From: Armatimonadota bacterium
GTDB taxonomy: Bacteria; Armatimonadota; UBA5829; DTJY01
DNA length: 64,000 nucleotides
Direction: 5' to 3'
Assembly (NCBI GenBank): GCA_029907255.1
Contig: JARYMF010000006.1
Coordinates: 196,426-260,425, forward strand
The notes beneath the pieces were generated by a model. That model was not told the origin of the DNA. It was given only the letters and a program-made list of their open reading frames with translations, and made no database searches. The position numbers and the translations under genes are program-made. Positions 31,405 through 62,940 of this stretch are shown here, piece after piece (the stretch's first letter is position 1; each line of letters starts with the position of its first letter).

Positions 31405-31851
31405 ATGATATATCCTTCGATAGATGAGCTTGACGCCAAGGTAGGAAGCAAGTATGCACTAGTTATAGCAGTGGCGAAGCGAGCGCGCCAATTGCGGGAG
31501 GGTGCCCAACCGCTGGTGGAAAGCACATCCAAAAATCCGATCACCATTGCTCTTGAAGAAATTGCGGCTGGAAAGATTCGCATTCACAAGCCAACTCCAG
31601 AGGAACAAGCGGCCCGGGAAGAGCAGCTTGCCCTTCCTCGCGAACGCAAGCGTGAAATAGAAGAAGCAGTCGACCTTCTCAGAGCTCCAGTACAAGAAGT
31701 CACTGAAAAGACGGGTGATGAAGAAACATCCCATGAGGAAGAAGGAGAGGAAGGGTTCACTGCTTCGGGCAATGGCTTGTCCAATGTAAATGACCAAGGT
31801 TCATCGGCCGAAATCGGGCTCGAAGAAGAAACCGAAATCGTAGAAGAATAA
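31405..31851 (+). CDS. rpoZ: RNA polymerase omega subunit with long acidic tail
   Basis: The first ~65 residues match omega: [48 protein letters not shown]. Omega helps fold and assemble the beta-prime subunit of RNA polymerase. The ATG has a GGGG-type ribosome site. The protein is 148 residues, and its last ~80 are hydrophilic and strongly acidic (EEEGEEGF, then [13 protein letters not shown]), well beyond the usual 70-90 residue length. It is followed 69 bp later by dnaJ, an uncommon pairing. Confidence 0.88.
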
Positions 31852-31920: not shown

Positions 31921-33060
31921 ATGCCTGTGAAAAGAGATTACTATGAGGTATTGGGAGTTGACCGCGGGGTATCTCAGGAAGAAATCAAAAAGGCATACCG
32001 ACGGTTAGCTCGCCAATACCATCCAGATGTAAATAAGGGCGACTCGAACGCCGAGGAAATCTTCAAGGAAATCAACGAAGCCTATGACGTCCTGAGCGAC
32101 CCAAAGAAGCGCGAGATATATGACCGGTATGGTCATCAAGGGCTAAATGGCCGCTTCTCAGGGTCTGGACCTGGGTTTGGATTTGAGGACTTCGGCATAG
32201 GTGGATTTGGCGATATCTTCGATTTGTTCTTTGGCTCAGGCATGAGAACAGAACAACATCGAAGATCAACCGCCGAACCTGGCGCCGACCTTCAATATGA
32301 ACTTGAGATTACCCTGGAGGAAGCTGCCACTGGCGTTGAACGCGTATTCCGACTATCAAGAATGGAACGATGCGAAGCCTGTAATGGGGCTGGGTATCCA
32401 CAAGGCAGTTCGCCAGGGATATGCCCTGACTGTGGTGGCACTGGCAAGATAGAACATCGTCGCTCAACAATACTTGGGTATATCTCATCGGTAAGCACAT
32501 GCTCCCGATGCCGGGGCACAGGTGAGATACTTACGAACCCTTGTCGCGATTGCGGCGGCCAGGGGCGCATTCGCCAGACGAGTGAGCAAACTGTTCACAT
32601 ACCGGCCGGTGTTGAAAACGGCTCTCGAATCAGAATCCGTGGGGCTGGCGACGCAGGCATTCGAGGCGGGCGACCGGGAGATCTGTACGTAATAGTCTAC
32701 ATCAAGCCTCACAACATATTTGAGCGTCGGGGGGACGATATCATTTGCGAGGTTCCCATAAGCTTCGTTCAAGCCGCGCTTGGTGATACGATTGAGGTGC
32801 CAGTGCTTGGCGGAACTACTACTCTGCGCATTCCGCAGGGAACCCAACCAGGACAGGTTTTCAAACTTGATGGCAGGGGTATGCCTAATCTTGATACAGG
32901 TCGGCGGGGCGACGAACACGTGGTTATCAAAGTAACAATCCCAACTGAGCTTTCGGCCCAGCAGAAAGAATTGCTCGAGCAGTTCGCTCAGTTGAGCGGG
33001 ATCTCGGTGGAAAACAGCCGAGGCAAAGGCTTATTTAGAAAAAGACAACGAAAGAAGTAG
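31921..33060 (+). CDS. dnaJ: chaperone DnaJ
   Basis: A complete type I (class A) Hsp40 of 379 residues: J domain at 1-70 with the H34-P35-D36 motif, a Gly/Phe-rich linker ([20 protein letters not shown]), four zinc-finger repeats ([32 protein letters not shown]) and the C-terminal substrate-binding domain. It stimulates DnaK. No ribosome site is obvious before the ATG, so coupling to rpoZ is possible. DnaJ is here apart from the hrcA-grpE cluster at 59-63 kb, and dnaK is in neither place. Confidence 0.96.
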
Positions 33061-33071
33061 GCTGAAATATC

Positions 33072-33938
33072 ATGCGTTGGGCCGAAATAGAAGTCCAAAC
33101 CAACGTGACGGCTCAAGAAGCCGTCGAAGCGATAATGTTTGAGAACGGATGCGGCGGCTTAGCCATTCAAGGTGAAACCCCTGTTTTCATTAAATGCTAC
33201 CTCCCAGTTGATGACCGGTTAGAAGAACGCATTTCCAACATCCAAAGTGGCATAACAAATCTCACCAAGTTTGGGCTCGACCCAGCTCCAGCCGAAATTA
33301 CTATCAAATATGCCGAAGAACAAGAATGGGCAGAGGCGTGGCGTCAGTTTTTCCGCACAACCCGAATTGGAAAGCATATAGTCATTAAACCCCCCTGGGA
33401 AAAATTTAATCCCGAACCTGGCGATGTCGTGATTGAAATCGAGGCAGGCATGGCATTTGGAACAGGGCAACACCCAACTACTCGTATGAGCCTTGAAGCT
33501 CTTGAGAAGCGCATTCGGCGATGCATGACTGTCGTAGATTTTGGTACTGGTTCGGGAATCTTGGCGATTGCAGCGGCGAAGCTAGGCGCCTGCCTTGTAA
33601 TCGCATTCGACATAGACGAGCTAGCCGTCCGAGCAGCAAGGGAAAACGTCCAACGTAATAACGAAGAAGAGCATATCGAGGTCCACCAAACTGACAACTT
33701 AGGGTTCATTCAAAATACTGTTGACCTAATCACGGCAAACATAGTAGCCGAAACTATCATAAAAAACGCGCCTGACATCGCCCGCGTGCTTCGCAGGGGC
33801 GGCATCCTGATTGCCTCAGGTATTGTAGACGAGAAATCGGCAGACGTCGAACGCGCACTTCGAAATGAAGGTTTTGACATAGCGGAGATCCTCAAAGATG
33901 GCGAATGGGCAACTTTGGTAGCACATAAAGCCAGCTAA
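33072..33938 (+). CDS. prmA: ribosomal protein L11 methyltransferase
   Basis: The 288-residue enzyme has the N-terminal L11-recognition domain and the SAM-dependent methyltransferase core with DFGTGSGILAIAAAKLG, IAFDIDELAVRAARENV and ADLITANIVAETI-like NxxA motif (read here as DLITANIVAETI). PrmA trimethylates L11. It starts 11 bp after dnaJ; dnaJ-prmA is a common pair across bacteria. Confidence 0.95.
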   Translation: MRWAEIEVQTNVTAQEAVEAIMFENGCGGLAIQGETPVFIKCYLPVDDRLEERISNIQSGITNLTKFGLDPAPAEITIKYAEEQEWAEAWRQFFRTTRIGKHIVIKPPWEKFNPEPGDVVIEIEAGMAFGTGQHPTTRMSLEALEKRIRRCMTVVDFGTGSGILAIAAAKLGACLVIAFDIDELAVRAARENVQRNNEEEHIEVHQTDNLGFIQNTVDLITANIVAETIIKNAPDIARVLRRGGILIASGIVDEKSADVERALRNEGFDIAEILKDGEWATLVAHKAS

Positions 33939-57780: not shown

Positions 57781-58227
57781 TTATCCCTCAACAGGGACTT
57801 TCTTCTCTTTCTCCTTCGCCTCCTCGGCCTTTGGAGCTACGACTTCTAGGACACCGTTCTTGAACATAGCCTTAACCTCTTCGGGCTTAATGGCTACTGG
57901 CATGGGAATGCTGCGATAGAACCTACCAGCTCGTCTCTCCCGGCGATAGTAGCCCTCTTCTTTAACCTCCTCCTCGCGCTTGAACTCGCCTTTCAGGCTG
58001 ATGCTGTCTTCCGTAGCCGTTACTTCCACGTCCTCCCGCTTTAGGCCAGGAAGCTCAGCCTTGATGACTATGTTGTTATCTCTTTCAAACATGTCAATCG
58101 CCGGGGAGATTACCTCCTCTCGTGGCATCACAAGTAAAGGAGTTCTCCAGAATTCCTCGAACAGACGGTCCATCTCCTCTCGCATGCGTCTTAGCTCAGA
58201 GAATGGTTCCCATCTCATTAAACTCAT
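57781..58227 (-). CDS. hsp20: small heat-shock protein Hsp20
   Basis: I start at the ATG at 58227 (AGGAGG 8 nt upstream; a nearer GTG lies inside the ribosome site). The 148-residue protein has an N-terminal arm (MSLMRWEPFSELRRMREEMD), the alpha-crystallin domain (about 40-130: IKAELPGLKREDVEVTATED, RSIPMPVAIKPEEVKAMFKN) and GVLEVVAPKAEEAKEKEKK as tail. It holds unfolding proteins for the ATP-dependent chaperones. It is 190 bp beyond corA, so it is probably its own transcript; no CIRCE element was seen. Confidence 0.95.
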   Translation of the reverse strand: MSLMRWEPFSELRRMREEMDRLFEEFWRTPLLVMPREEVISPAIDMFERDNNIVIKAELPGLKREDVEVTATEDSISLKGEFKREEEVKEEGYYRRERRAGRFYRSIPMPVAIKPEEVKAMFKNGVLEVVAPKAEEAKEKEKKVPVEG

Positions 58228-58426
58228 ATCTCTCACCTCCTAAGCATGTTATTCTCAAATGCCCTAGCGAATTAGGATTTTGCGTTTTGTGGACAAGTGT
58301 CTATCGCAATTTTTTAATACCCAGGAGAAAAAAGAGCTTAAACTATTCGGATAACGAAATTTTGGGGTTTTTCAAAGCAAGTTGGGGCACAAGGGCTAAC
58401 TAAGCACCTACACTAAAATTAAGATA

Positions 58427-59395
58427 TTACAACCACTTAATACGCCTAAAGTAATAGAGAAGAACGACACCAATCAATGCCATTAGGCCTAAAGCGTAAG
58501 GATAACCATATCGCCAAGTAAGCTCCGGCATGTAACGGAAATTCATACCATAAATAGCCGCTACCAATCCCACTGAGATCAAGACTGTCGCTGCGACCGT
58601 GAGCGATTTCATCACGGCGTTGAGCTGATTGGAAATTACCGTGAGATAGGCATCCAGCGCACTTGCCAGGATGTCACGGTAGGTATCTATGGTGTCTACA
58701 ATTCGCAAGGTGTGGTCGTAAATGTCGCGCAGATATGTCACGGCCTGCTCCGAAAGAAGCGGTTGGTCCCTTCGGGTTAGGATATTGAACATATCCCTCA
58801 GTGGAGTTGCAATCCTTCGCAAGACCAGCAAGGTTCGCTTTAGCCGAAATATTCTTTCTGGGGACTCCGCTGCTTCCTGCTTAAATATACTGGTCTCAAT
58901 TTGGTCAAGCCTTTCGTCTATTTGGTCAAGGATGGGGAAATAAGAGTCTACCAGCGCGTCAAGAATATCGTACAATAGCAGTCCAACACCGCCCACAAAT
59001 GCCTGGGGATGCCGACTCCATCTATCCGCAACCTCATGGAGAACTGTGAGCTCTTGCTTATGTAGGGTTACAATATAGTTTTTGCCCACAAAAATATCGA
59101 GCTCTATCGGCCGAACATCTTCCTTCTTTGGGTTGTATGTTACAAAGTGCGAGACCAAGAAAAGGTAGCCTGGATATTCGTCAACCTTAGGCCTGTGATG
59201 TGGAGTAAAATAATCATCTATCGCGAGCGGATGGAAACCAAACTCTAAAGCGAGCTTTTCCATCTCCTCTTTCGAAGGATTCATAGCGTCCAACCAAACA
59301 ATAGTCTCTGGATCGGCAATAAAATCGCTAATTTGGGCTATGTTTTTTATAATTTGGACGCCTTTATTCGGGTGGTATGCTGTAATGCGGAACAC
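58427..59395 (-). CDS. corA: magnesium/cobalt transporter CorA
   Basis: The 322-residue protein has a large N-terminal cytoplasmic domain and two C-terminal helices, with the signature YGMNFRYMPELTWRYGYP between them (GMN motif). The tail ends in a basic FRRIKW. Its GTG start is 12 bp after the grpE stop, so CorA is in the same transcript as a chaperone gene, an unusual neighbour. Confidence 0.93.
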   Translation of the reverse strand: MFRITAYHPNKGVQIIKNIAQISDFIADPETIVWLDAMNPSKEEMEKLALEFGFHPLAIDDYFTPHHRPKVDEYPGYLFLVSHFVTYNPKKEDVRPIELDIFVGKNYIVTLHKQELTVLHEVADRWSRHPQAFVGGVGLLLYDILDALVDSYFPILDQIDERLDQIETSIFKQEAAESPERIFRLKRTLLVLRRIATPLRDMFNILTRRDQPLLSEQAVTYLRDIYDHTLRIVDTIDTYRDILASALDAYLTVISNQLNAVMKSLTVAATVLISVGLVAAIYGMNFRYMPELTWRYGYPYALGLMALIGVVLLYYFRRIKWL

Positions 59396-59406
59396 GTCGT
59401 GTTACC

Positions 59407-60078
59407 TTAACCATCTTGCTCCACCCTGGGATGGTGGGCTACCTTCACGGCACTCGGTCTTATCACACGGCCATTCATGGTGTACCCTGTCCGAACCTCT
59501 TCAATGATAGTTTCGTCGGGGTACTCCGTCGTATCCACACGTGCAACAGCTTCATGCTTCATTGGGTCGAATTTTTCACCAACGGCTTTTATCGGTTCAA
59601 CGCCTTCCTTCGCGAGGAGATCACGAAGTTGACGCAGGATGAGTATTACACCTCCATGCAGAGAGTCAAAATTCTTTGTCTCTTCTGCAGCTTTGATAGC
59701 CCTTTCGAAGTTGTCGAGAATCGGAAGTAATCTAATAATAAAGTCTTCGGTAGCAAATTTCCTTACTTGCTCCAGCTCCTCCCTAGCGCGGCGTCGGTAG
59801 TTAGTAAAATCAGCAAGCGTCCGAAGGAAATTGTCATGTTCCTCCTCCGCTCGCCTCTCTGCTTCCTCACACCGTTCCTTTAAGATGCGAATGTCTTCGG
59901 GAAGTACCTCTTCTGCGGTGGATTCCACGACAACATCCGCTTCTTCTGGCGATTCTGAAAACACCTCAGGCGGAACTACGCCAGTCTCCTCAAGCTCTTT
60001 ATCCCTGTGTTGTGCCTCAGACTCAGAGGAGTTTTGCGCTGAATTATCATTTATTGGAATTTTTCGTTTATTCGCCAT
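59407..60078 (-). CDS. grpE: nucleotide exchange factor GrpE
   Basis: The 223-residue GrpE has an acidic, Glu-rich N-terminus (about 1-65), a long helix (RCEEAERRAEEEHDNFLRTL, ADFTNYRRRAREELEQVRKF) and the C-terminal beta domain (VGEKFDPMKHEAVARVDTTE, GYTMNGRVIRPSAVKVAH). It speeds ADP release from DnaK. GAGGT precedes the ATG. dnaK, its partner, normally follows but corA is found instead. Confidence 0.95.
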   Translation of the reverse strand: MANKRKIPINDNSAQNSSESEAQHRDKELEETGVVPPEVFSESPEEADVVVESTAEEVLPEDIRILKERCEEAERRAEEEHDNFLRTLADFTNYRRRAREELEQVRKFATEDFIIRLLPILDNFERAIKAAEETKNFDSLHGGVILILRQLRDLLAKEGVEPIKAVGEKFDPMKHEAVARVDTTEYPDETIIEEVRTGYTMNGRVIRPSAVKVAHHPRVEQDG

Positions 60079-60175
60079 TTTTCTACCTCAATGAACAAAT
60101 TTTCACAGCTTGTTCTTTTCGAATTGGACAATTTTTAACCCTGATATGTTTTTTCACACCAAAAGCGAATTCCGT

Positions 60176-61750
60176 TCAACTGCCTGCTTGCGGCTGAGCA
60201 GCCGCCTCGGTGTCATCATTCCGCTTTTTAATTATGGTATTAATCCTTAGAACGGCGTCTGCAATTTCAGCAGCAGCCTTTAGAGCGTGAACTTTAACTT
60301 TTAAGGGATCAACTACCCCCAGCTCCCACATATCGGCAACTTCGCCAGTATCGCATTCAATGGCAAGTGAAACCTTGCCTTGTTCTGCTTGGGCGGCTAT
60401 CACGTCCTCGACTTTCTCAAGGGGGTTGAACCCAGCATTTGCAACGATTTGGCTCAGAGGTTTCTTAAGGGCCTCCGCCACGCAATCAACGCCATAGGCT
60501 GCCATGCCCTTAACTCCGTCTCTCAGGAAAGAAACCTCTCTTGATGCAGCAATCTCGATAGAGCCACCGCCTGGAACAACGCCGCCTATAATAGCGGCCT
60601 GAACTGCTGAGGCGGCATCGCGCGCTATCCGCTCGCGTTCGTCTCTGACCTCCCTTGTTGCTGCACCGACAAGTAGTGTGGCGGCAGGCTTCCCAACTCC
60701 GCCCATAATACGCGTATGTTCCAACCTCTCATCTTCATATACCCGTGCGCATCGCCCGACAAACAAAGATAACTCCTCAAGCGGTTTCTTTAGACCCGCT
60801 CGCTTTATTGTCTTAGCACCTGTATGTTCCACAATCCTTGCTATGTCCCTCGTAGATACGCGACGGAGAACTATAATACCGGCATCGGTAAGTAACTCCT
60901 CTGCCAAATCTGCAACGCCCTTATTTGCAACAACGAGACCAATTCCTAAATCAACGATTTTTCGCAAATTCTCACAAAACTCGTTTTGAAGTTGGACATA
61001 CCGCGCAAAACCCGATTCTGTGCCAAGTGCATCATCTTCCATTCGTTCGGGCTCAAGCGCGTCGTCAACTACCAAAACCTTGACATCTTCGAGCGAGCGC
61101 GGCATCTGGCTGTTCATGCGCTCTTTTTCTATAATGAGACCCGTAAATACTTCGTTCTGCGCGCCTTCTTTTGCAACAATAGTATCAGCAAGTTTGAATG
61201 CTGGTTCCGCCAGTTTTTCTTTACCCACAAGCTTCGCCGCTTGGACGACCAAATCTGCAATCTCGGCATCCTCTCTTCCGGCGATATAAGCCGCCTGCCA
61301 CAGAAGCGGGTCGTCGAAGTCCTTGACTTGTCTGCTTGCGGCTTCCAATACCTCAAGGGCTTTCTTCATACCAATGGAAAGCCCTTGTATTACCTTTGTC
61401 ACCGGCACGCCTCTCGACACCCTGCTGACCCCTTCCATTACAAGGGCAGAAGCTAGGATGGCAGCGGTAGTTGTGCCGTCGCCTACTTCTTCATCTTGAG
61501 CCTTGGCTGTACGAATAACCAACCTTGCGGCAGGGTGATTTATATCAATTTTGTCGAGAATCGTGCTGCCATCATTGGTAATTGTCACGTCGCCGAACTT
61601 GTCAACGAGCATGCAGTTCAGACCTTTAGGTCCAAGTGTTCCTTCAACAGACGAAGCAACCGCGCGCACTGCGGTTGCATTCGCAAGCAATGCCGCAAGG
61701 CGCTCATCTACGTCCGCCGACTTACTTACCTGCTTAATGTTTGAACTCAT
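60176..61750 (-). CDS. archaeal-like (Group III) chaperonin
   Basis: The 524-residue protein is thermosome/CCT-like rather than GroEL-like. VEGTLGPKGLNCMLVDKFGD, NDGSTIL (59-65) and EEVGDGTTTAAILAS (90-96) bind and hydrolyse ATP, followed by a Group II-type apical domain (DTIVAKEGAQNEVFTGLIIE, MEDDALGTESGFARYVQLQN) and VVPGGGSIEIAASREV. Bacteria known to carry such genes have been described as having Group III chaperonins, with built-in lids and no GroES. The gene lies between hrcA (69 bp) and grpE (97 bp), which in described cases is exactly the dnaK operon site. No groES or groEL is in this window. Confidence 0.94.
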   Translation of the reverse strand: MSSNIKQVSKSADVDERLAALLANATAVRAVASSVEGTLGPKGLNCMLVDKFGDVTITNDGSTILDKIDINHPAARLVIRTAKAQDEEVGDGTTTAAILASALVMEGVSRVSRGVPVTKVIQGLSIGMKKALEVLEAASRQVKDFDDPLLWQAAYIAGREDAEIADLVVQAAKLVGKEKLAEPAFKLADTIVAKEGAQNEVFTGLIIEKERMNSQMPRSLEDVKVLVVDDALEPERMEDDALGTESGFARYVQLQNEFCENLRKIVDLGIGLVVANKGVADLAEELLTDAGIIVLRRVSTRDIARIVEHTGAKTIKRAGLKKPLEELSLFVGRCARVYEDERLEHTRIMGGVGKPAATLLVGAATREVRDERERIARDAASAVQAAIIGGVVPGGGSIEIAASREVSFLRDGVKGMAAYGVDCVAEALKKPLSQIVANAGFNPLEKVEDVIAAQAEQGKVSLAIECDTGEVADMWELGVVDPLKVKVHALKAAAEIADAVLRINTIIKKRNDDTEAAAQPQAGS

Positions 61751-61819
61751 TTTTGAACTTAAGAAGGGATCCTGGGGCTGAGGGATTTAGGTATCCAGAA
61801 ACCCGCCGTAGCATGCTGA

Positions 61820-62857
61820 TTATCCAATACTTAATTGGGTCAGCATCTGGCTGAGGCTCGATGCCATTAGCTCAACAGCGGCCACTGCACGCCGATAGTC
61901 CATCCTTGTAGGCCCTACAACTCCTATGCTCCCGCATACGCGATCGCCGATGTGATAGTTTGCTGTAACAAAGCTGCAATCGCTTAGCTCACAGAACTGG
62001 TTTTCCTCACCGATAATGACGGTTACATCCTTGCCAAGCAATGCCGTGCTCAAAACCTGGAATAGTACTTTGCGCTTTTCTAGGGCGTCGAGAATCATCG
62101 TAAGCTTTTCTGTTCGGGAAAATTCCGGCTGCTTGAGAATGTGGCTTGTTCCATCTATGAAAACCTCGCTATCAGTAGCTGCAACCAGCGCCTGCTTTAC
62201 GAGGGCAACCACCTTTTTGTAAAGAGCGGTCATTCTAAAAAGATCCGCCGGCAGAGCATTTCTAATCCTAGTAGTAAATTCGCGCAACTCAGCACCTTGT
62301 AGACGCTCGTTAACCAGATTCCCAATAGAATTAAGGTCAACAGTGTTGAGGTCGCTCTCCCAATCTAGCAATCGGTGATCAATATGTCCGGTGCTAAGTA
62401 CAGTGATTACAAGAAGCTTGCCTCGGCCAATTGGAGAGAGTGCTACGTGGCGAATACTTATGGTGCCCATCTGTGGCTTAGTTGCCAGAGAAGTATATTG
62501 GGCCAATCCAGATAGAATCCGGCACGTCTGTAAAAGGATGTTCTCAATTTCGCTCTCATAAGGATTATATGCCGCCCTTGCACGCGAAGCTTCTGCTCGC
62601 CCCAGCTTGGGGTCAGGCATTAGCTTGTCAACATAGTACCGATAGCCAAGGTCTGATGGCACGCGGCCCGCAGATTTGTGCGGTTGTTTTAGATAGCCCA
62701 GCTCTGACATAGCCGCAAGCTCATGACGAATCATCGCGGGCTTAATTCCAAAGTTGTAGTTCGCCGCTAGCGTTTCCGAACCTACCGGTTCCGCAGTCCT
62801 CACGTATTGATTTACAATTGCTTCCAGTATTCTGCTTCTCCGCTCGCCGAGTTCCAT
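61820..62857 (-). CDS. hrcA: heat-inducible repressor HrcA
   Basis: I start at the ATG at 62857 (GAGGTG 6 nt upstream), giving MELGERRSRILEAIVNQYV. The 345-residue protein has the winged-helix domain (VRTAEPVGSETLAANYNFGI, SELGYLKQPHKSAGRVPSDL) and the GAF-like regulatory domain with GEENQFCELSDCSFVTANY, typical of HrcA. It represses heat-shock operons through the CIRCE element. I found no good CIRCE near its promoter or in the cluster, so the operator may differ. Confidence 0.95.
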   Translation of the reverse strand: MELGERRSRILEAIVNQYVRTAEPVGSETLAANYNFGIKPAMIRHELAAMSELGYLKQPHKSAGRVPSDLGYRYYVDKLMPDPKLGRAEASRARAAYNPYESEIENILLQTCRILSGLAQYTSLATKPQMGTISIRHVALSPIGRGKLLVITVLSTGHIDHRLLDWESDLNTVDLNSIGNLVNERLQGAELREFTTRIRNALPADLFRMTALYKKVVALVKQALVAATDSEVFIDGTSHILKQPEFSRTEKLTMILDALEKRKVLFQVLSTALLGKDVTVIIGEENQFCELSDCSFVTANYHIGDRVCGSIGVVGPTRMDYRRAVAAVELMASSLSQMLTQLSIG

Positions 62858-62911
62858 CGGCTTCACCTCAAATAACAAGGTAGCCGTATGCGCAAACCTT
62901 CTTCTGATAAG

Positions 62912-62940
62912 AGTATACCATTAGCAACGTCTAGAGTCAA
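62912..62940 (-). promoter_or_regulatory. sigma70 promoter of hrcA
   Basis: TTGACT (62935-62940) and TATACT (62912-62917) on the minus strand are 17 bp apart, about 55 bp before the hrcA ATG. The spacer has a GTTGCTAA that resembles one half of CIRCE, but the mirror half is missing. Confidence 0.78.

Follow-up and report, generated by a model that had tools for sequence, protein, structure and literature searches.

Armatimonadota that carry a Group III chaperonin (CPN3) usually have the gene order hrcA-chaperonin-grpE, with no dnaK. The window analyzed here, a stretch of 64,000 nucleotides (positions 196426-260425 of contig C6) interior to a contig of 271,904 bases in a draft assembly of 3.23 Mb (33 contigs, 99.7% complete), holds one such cluster. 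The reading of it that we consider probable, judging from sequence, is that the cluster is the remnant front half of a larger operon, that a dnaK of another type (type B) took over, that hrcA has a promoter without the CIRCE operator, and that HrcA would act at groESL and HspR at dnaK. A Group III chaperonin, an archaea-like folding machine, within a heat-shock repressor operon is known but uncommon; what appears to distinguish this cluster from its Bacillota relatives is that the usual dnaK and the control site of hrcA itself are gone, with dnaK residing elsewhere under what is predicted to be a different repressor. Our search of the open-access literature found no paper on Group III or thermosome-like chaperonins in Armatimonadota.

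The chaperonin and its gene cluster

The genes that the sequence-only reading had described as a one-strand series of hrcA, a thermosome-like chaperonin, grpE, corA, and hsp20 all lie on the minus strand, and each of the five could be confidently assigned to a family (Table 1), with gaps of 69, 97, 11, and 190 bp separating them in this order. The start of hrcA is more likely to be the ATG at 62857, with GAGGTG ahead of it, than the TTG at 62878. Neither dnaK nor dnaJ is present in the cluster, and grpE has no adjoining dnaK, an absence claimed earlier that held. In the whole genome, there are a single dnaK (contig C18), two groES genes, and two groEL genes (contigs C11 and C9), the latter making three Cpn60 genes together with the window chaperonin; grpE and hrcA are also single-copy in the genome, being those of the cluster. 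It is very improbable that a dnaK next to grpE was lost at an assembly break, as the draft state of the 33-contig assembly might lead one to suppose, and we rule this explanation out: corA starts 11 bp past grpE, and corA, hsp20, and more genes run on unbroken; relatives carry the same order; and the sole dnaK of this nearly complete (99.7%) genome has a complete operon of its own that includes hspR.

Table 1. Features of the window, with positions counted from its first base
Feature	Coordinates	Strand	Evidence and remarks
rpoZ-like ORF beside dnaJ	31405..31851	+	PF01192, 74 bits
dnaJ	31921..33060	+	TIGR02349, 455 bits (cut-off 377)
prmA, next after dnaJ	33072..33938	+	PF06325, 263 bits; dnaJ-prmA order also in Bacillota
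Terminator-like hairpin, past the tail ORF	56553-56530		
Tail ORF, 361 aa	56589..57674	-	Weak anti-sigma RskA_C-like segment
hsp20, small heat-shock protein	57781..58236	-	PF00011, 75 bits
corA-type Mg2+/Co2+ transporter	58427..59395	-	TIGR00383, 302 bits (cut-off 201); PF01544
grpE	59407..60078	-	PF01025, 172 bits
Group III chaperonin CPN3, 524 aa	60176..61750	-	PF00118, 386 bits; archaeal thermosome models best
hrcA, heat-shock repressor	61820..62857	-	TIGR00331, 306 bits (cut-off 197); PF01628; ORF from TTG 62878 (61820-62878)
Sigma70-type promoter before hrcA, TTGACT-N17-TATACT, extended -10 TG	62912..62940	-	10/12 consensus matches

The corA gene had been taken to replace dnaK. It does follow grpE, but as a late neighbor, restricted to four of the five genomes of the window's family, and is no special replacement; a functional meaning of the adjacency was rejected, its support being at the family level only. 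The tail ORF at the end of the cluster is conserved and family-specific, recurring in the same terminal position in relatives L044, L046, and L050.

As a Group III protein, the window chaperonin is ordinary, and the identity proposed earlier is supported by sequence score, fold, residues, and phylogeny alike. In phmmer comparisons it scored 457 bits against Ch-CPN of Carboxydothermus versus 233 bits against the nearest natural archaeal thermosome; the resurrected ancestral chaperonin 9rwq reached 638 bits, above Ch-CPN. The AlphaFold2 model (pLDDT 87.6) has its top fold matches in Ch-CPN (5x9v/5x9u, closed and open forms; TM 0.88-0.89, rmsd 2.1, 45-46% identity), with thermosomes at a TM of ~0.83 and 32% identity, and predicts a built-in lid and a fold nearest to that of Ch-CPN. 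Ten mapped residues (D60, D91, T93, T95, R159, D378, L242, F248, Y251, and F258) are identical to those of Ch-CPN, the catalytic and lid residues of which have been named (PMC5635000): Asp56, Asp373, the gamma-phosphate Arg155, and the GDGTTT motif correspond to D60, D378, R159, and D91-T95, and the hydrophobic lid residues Leu237, Phe243, Tyr246, and Phe253 to L242, F248, Y251, and F258. The nucleotide-sensing loop is absent, this region being six residues shorter than that of the Thermococcus thermosome and aligning without a gap to that of Ch-CPN.

In a maximum-likelihood tree of Group I, II, and III sequences, in which Ch-CPN and one thermosome form long branches, the window protein falls within the Group III clade (95/95), outside both the thermosomes (100/99) and GroEL, and a larger quick tree agrees. 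The Armatimonadota chaperonins form one clade within Group III (97/99), placed among Bacillota (91/83). The tree also bears on the alternative that the gene encodes an archaeal thermosome, acquired by recent transfer or belonging to a contaminating contig, for which one could cite the best named NCBIfam models, all archaeal thermosome subunits. The thermosome model, however, scores far under cut-offs (303 vs 671 bits), Ch-CPN is much closer, thermosomes are excluded by the tree, and the gene, interior to its 272-kb contig, has a 98% identical orthologue with matching neighbors in a genome of the same genus. Given the tree and the orthologues, which occur across Armatimonadota, we regard this alternative as refuted, with a residual probability close to nil. 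By analogy with Ch-CPN, CPN3 would form a double ring with eight identical subunits per ring, and its built-in lid would shut the ring upon ATP binding, without GroES.

Gene order and the types of dnaK

A Group III chaperonin was found in about 40 of the 291 Armatimonadota genomes sampled, which extends the range of the group well into this phylum. We compared the neighbors of 37 Armatimonadota and 69 Bacillota chaperonin loci in draft and metagenome-assembled genomes (the collection scan covered the best 80 loci; denominators are assessable loci). Adjacent to the chaperonin, grpE is present in 29/36 Armatimonadota versus 58/69 Bacillota loci and hrcA precedes it in 23/35 versus 67/67, whereas dnaK follows in 2/30 versus 55/64, and dnaJ is adjacent in 0/26 versus 62/63. 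Of the split arrangement that had been called unusual, the uncoupling of the chaperonin from dnaK thus stands, but it is not peculiar to one genome, given the two Armatimonadota loci among 30 with an adjacent dnaK. According to the published description, Group III genes lie in the dnaK operon, with one exception (PMC5635000), a location that is a usual trait and no structural definition, and from which the Armatimonadota loci depart. A Bacillota lineage near Armatimonadota in the tree (L104, L117, L122, L125, L135, L144, L153, and L154) has the order hrcA-CPN3-dnaJ, with no intervening grpE or dnaK and with CIRCE kept. The idea that this sister group lacks DnaK was rejected, since dnaK was found elsewhere in eight of nine genomes, the exception being the 1.5-Mb genome that contains L122.

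The single dnaK of the window's genome belongs to an operon with the order dnaK-hsp20-dnaJ(CbpA-like)-hspR, the last gene of which matches HeatShock_HspR with 119 bits (NCBIfam cut-off 105), and two HAIR-like sites, each with 2 mismatches in 14 positions, lie 32-126 bp upstream of dnaK. Two matches with up to three mismatches occurred anywhere in the 14-kb stretch in 22 of 200 shuffles; the real pair is located just before dnaK, where bifidobacteria have two HAIR sites, too (PMC9004370). Similar sites precede dnaK in the four other members of the family, and they are not found at every hspR-type dnaK. This operon thus combines an internal hspR with upstream HAIR-like sites, the marks of HspR/HAIR control; in the whole window, the scan gave a single HAIR-like match, which is fewer than expected by chance and is distant from the cluster. 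Divergent from the dnaK operon are large CxxCH-rich, multihaem cytochrome-like ORFs (L040 6872-10768, contig C18). The dnaJ of the window, as had been noted, lies ~26 kb from the cluster after the rpoZ-like ORF; it is followed by prmA and stands without dnaK, and we read it as the end of the former operon, now displaced.

In an unrooted DnaK tree, the hspR type (type B) forms a clade with a support of 100 and the other Armatimonadota copies (type A) one with 95. Only the hspR-type dnaK was found in the window's family (with the copy of G225 cut by a contig end), in which the dnaK-hsp20-dnaJ-hspR operon recurs. Elsewhere, dnaK comes right after hrcA-CPN3-grpE in G192 and G193 (INTERMEDIATES), both of which also carry the dnaK-hsp20-dnaJ-hspR operon, and in G218, G220, G221, G227, and G229 it is found with dnaJ, mostly also with prmA, apart from the chaperonin, which is gone from G218; all of these five also hold the hspR-type dnaK, except G221, where only the dnaJ-linked copy was seen. 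Where a relative has a second dnaK next to grpE or dnaJ, the arrangement resembles an intermediate in the splitting of an hrcA-chaperonin-grpE-dnaK-dnaJ-prmA operon, and we read the series as the stepwise break-up of a Bacillota-like operon, the direction of which we infer, the DnaK tree being unrooted. The window cluster would then represent the surviving front half of an operon, hrcA-CPN3-grpE-dnaK-dnaJ-prmA, which most Bacillota carriers of Group III keep whole. Following its break-up in Armatimonadota, dnaJ-prmA would have moved off, the operon-type (type A) dnaK would have persisted in some families and disappeared from that of the window, and the type B dnaK, in its dnaK-hsp20-dnaJ-hspR operon, would have taken over. 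Transfer of the operon in pieces is possible as well because the DnaK tree has no root and the Armatimonadota chaperonins are placed among those of Bacillota (91/83).

Alternatively, the dnaK-less order could be ancestral in Armatimonadota, with type A dnaK arriving later beside grpE or dnaJ-prmA, which we hold to be quite improbable. The scarcity of loci with an adjacent dnaK (two of the 30) and the long branches of the operon dnaK copies of G192 and G193 in the DnaK tree are in keeping with late arrival; yet the Bacillota order is obtained by joining grpE-dnaK, seen in one lineage, to the dnaK-dnaJ-prmA of others, and both kinds of dnaK, grpE-linked and dnaJ-linked, fall into one clade. A tie between the loss of CPN3 and that of grpE, prompted by G233, was rejected because other CPN3-less relatives keep grpE; hrcA-grpE occurs without CPN3 in G218 and G045. 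In G233 itself (100% complete), DnaK is present, with no detectable GrpE and no CPN3, through either gene loss or an assembly gap, and its congener G234 has CPN3-grpE. Family f30 comprises three genomes without hrcA and CIRCE; at L160 (G206), it has a dnaK-hsp20-grpE-dnaJ-hspR operon, with the chaperonin alone.

Promoter, operators, and proposed regulation

The promoter before hrcA, which the sequence-only reading had singled out as consensus, is near-consensus. It is the best of seven matches in the region, where 7.7 are expected by shuffling; what supports it, therefore, is its conservation among relatives, as 18 of 23 Armatimonadota loci have a strong sigma70-type promoter upstream of hrcA, in most cases one with an extended -10, versus 0.3 expected in shuffles. 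No CIRCE with up to three mismatches was found in the whole window, and the cluster thus lacks the element that, in an autoregulated HrcA/CIRCE operon, lies between the promoter and the first gene. Upstream of hrcA, CIRCE (up to one mismatch) is present in 65 of 67 Bacillota loci versus none of 23 in Armatimonadota (Fisher p 2e-19, with related loci amounting to few independent events). Most of the same Armatimonadota genomes keep CIRCE just before groES, and both groES genes of the window's genome are preceded by it, once exactly and once with 1 mismatch. That CIRCE works with HrcA in Armatimonadota is supported by its absence from the four hrcA-less genomes tested; in G229 and G245, hrcA is present and no CIRCE was found within two mismatches.

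The cluster might still be regulated by HrcA through a diverged, non-CIRCE operator overlapping the promoter, with the feedback loop intact, a scenario that we judge unlikely. In its favor, hrcA remains beside CPN3 in 23 of 35 loci, and candidate operators can be pointed out, namely, a degenerate CIRCE-like sequence overlapping the hrcA promoter in G220 and G221 (one family) and a weak imperfect palindrome overlapping the -10 region in the window. However, the specificity of HrcA looks unchanged, because these genomes retain canonical CIRCE at groES, and the likeness among relatives upstream of hrcA is limited to the promoter hexamers.

Under the preferred reading, the vegetative sigma70-type promoter probably drives CPN3 and GrpE constitutively and without HrcA feedback, because this promoter has no CIRCE; HrcA would be left controlling the two groESL operons only, and HspR would control dnaK. 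In other bacteria, GroE is known to titrate HrcA (PMC6032397); here, such titration would then likely act on groESL alone. Clients may, if at all, be handed over between DnaK and CPN3. More broadly, we put forward, as possible rather than probable, a phylum-wide rewiring in which CPN3 would have lost both its place in the DnaK operon and its feedback control by HrcA, becoming a constitutive housekeeping chaperonin, with GrpE, made only from the CPN3 operon, tying CPN3 to the HspR-controlled DnaK. The proposal that DnaK passes clients to Group III chaperonins rests on their location in the DnaK operon (PMC5635000, PMC5220055); if the rewiring is true, any CPN3-DnaK partnership would be independent of operon linkage in the Armatimonadota lineage. 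These bacteria keep the chaperonin but have neither the dnaK linkage nor the shared repressor site, and their relatives hold intermediate arrangements, providing a natural comparison in which grpE is the neighbor retained (29/36) and dnaK and dnaJ are dispensable.

Comparison with known systems

The window protein resembles Ch-CPN of Carboxydothermus hydrogenoformans (5x9u/5x9v; PMC5635000) in fold, domain order, catalytic and lid residues, and the missing nucleotide-sensing loop, but the two are only about 45% identical, and the gene context in the window is without dnaK/dnaJ and CIRCE. With the hrcA-CPN3-grpE-dnaK-dnaJ-prmA operon of Bacillota, such as Pelotomaculum, Sporomusa, and Heliobacterium, the cluster shares the order hrcA-CPN3-grpE, whereas dnaK, dnaJ, and prmA are detached and no CIRCE stands before hrcA. 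The split control by HspR and HrcA in Bifidobacterium (PMC9004370) and Helicobacter (PMC6032397) is matched by hspR, HAIR-type sites at dnaK, and CIRCE at groES. Unlike in both of these bacteria, hrcA in the window is the first gene of an operon for a Group III chaperonin and the only grpE, and it lacks a CIRCE; the hrcA of Bifidobacterium, by contrast, does bear a CIRCE site (PMC9004370).
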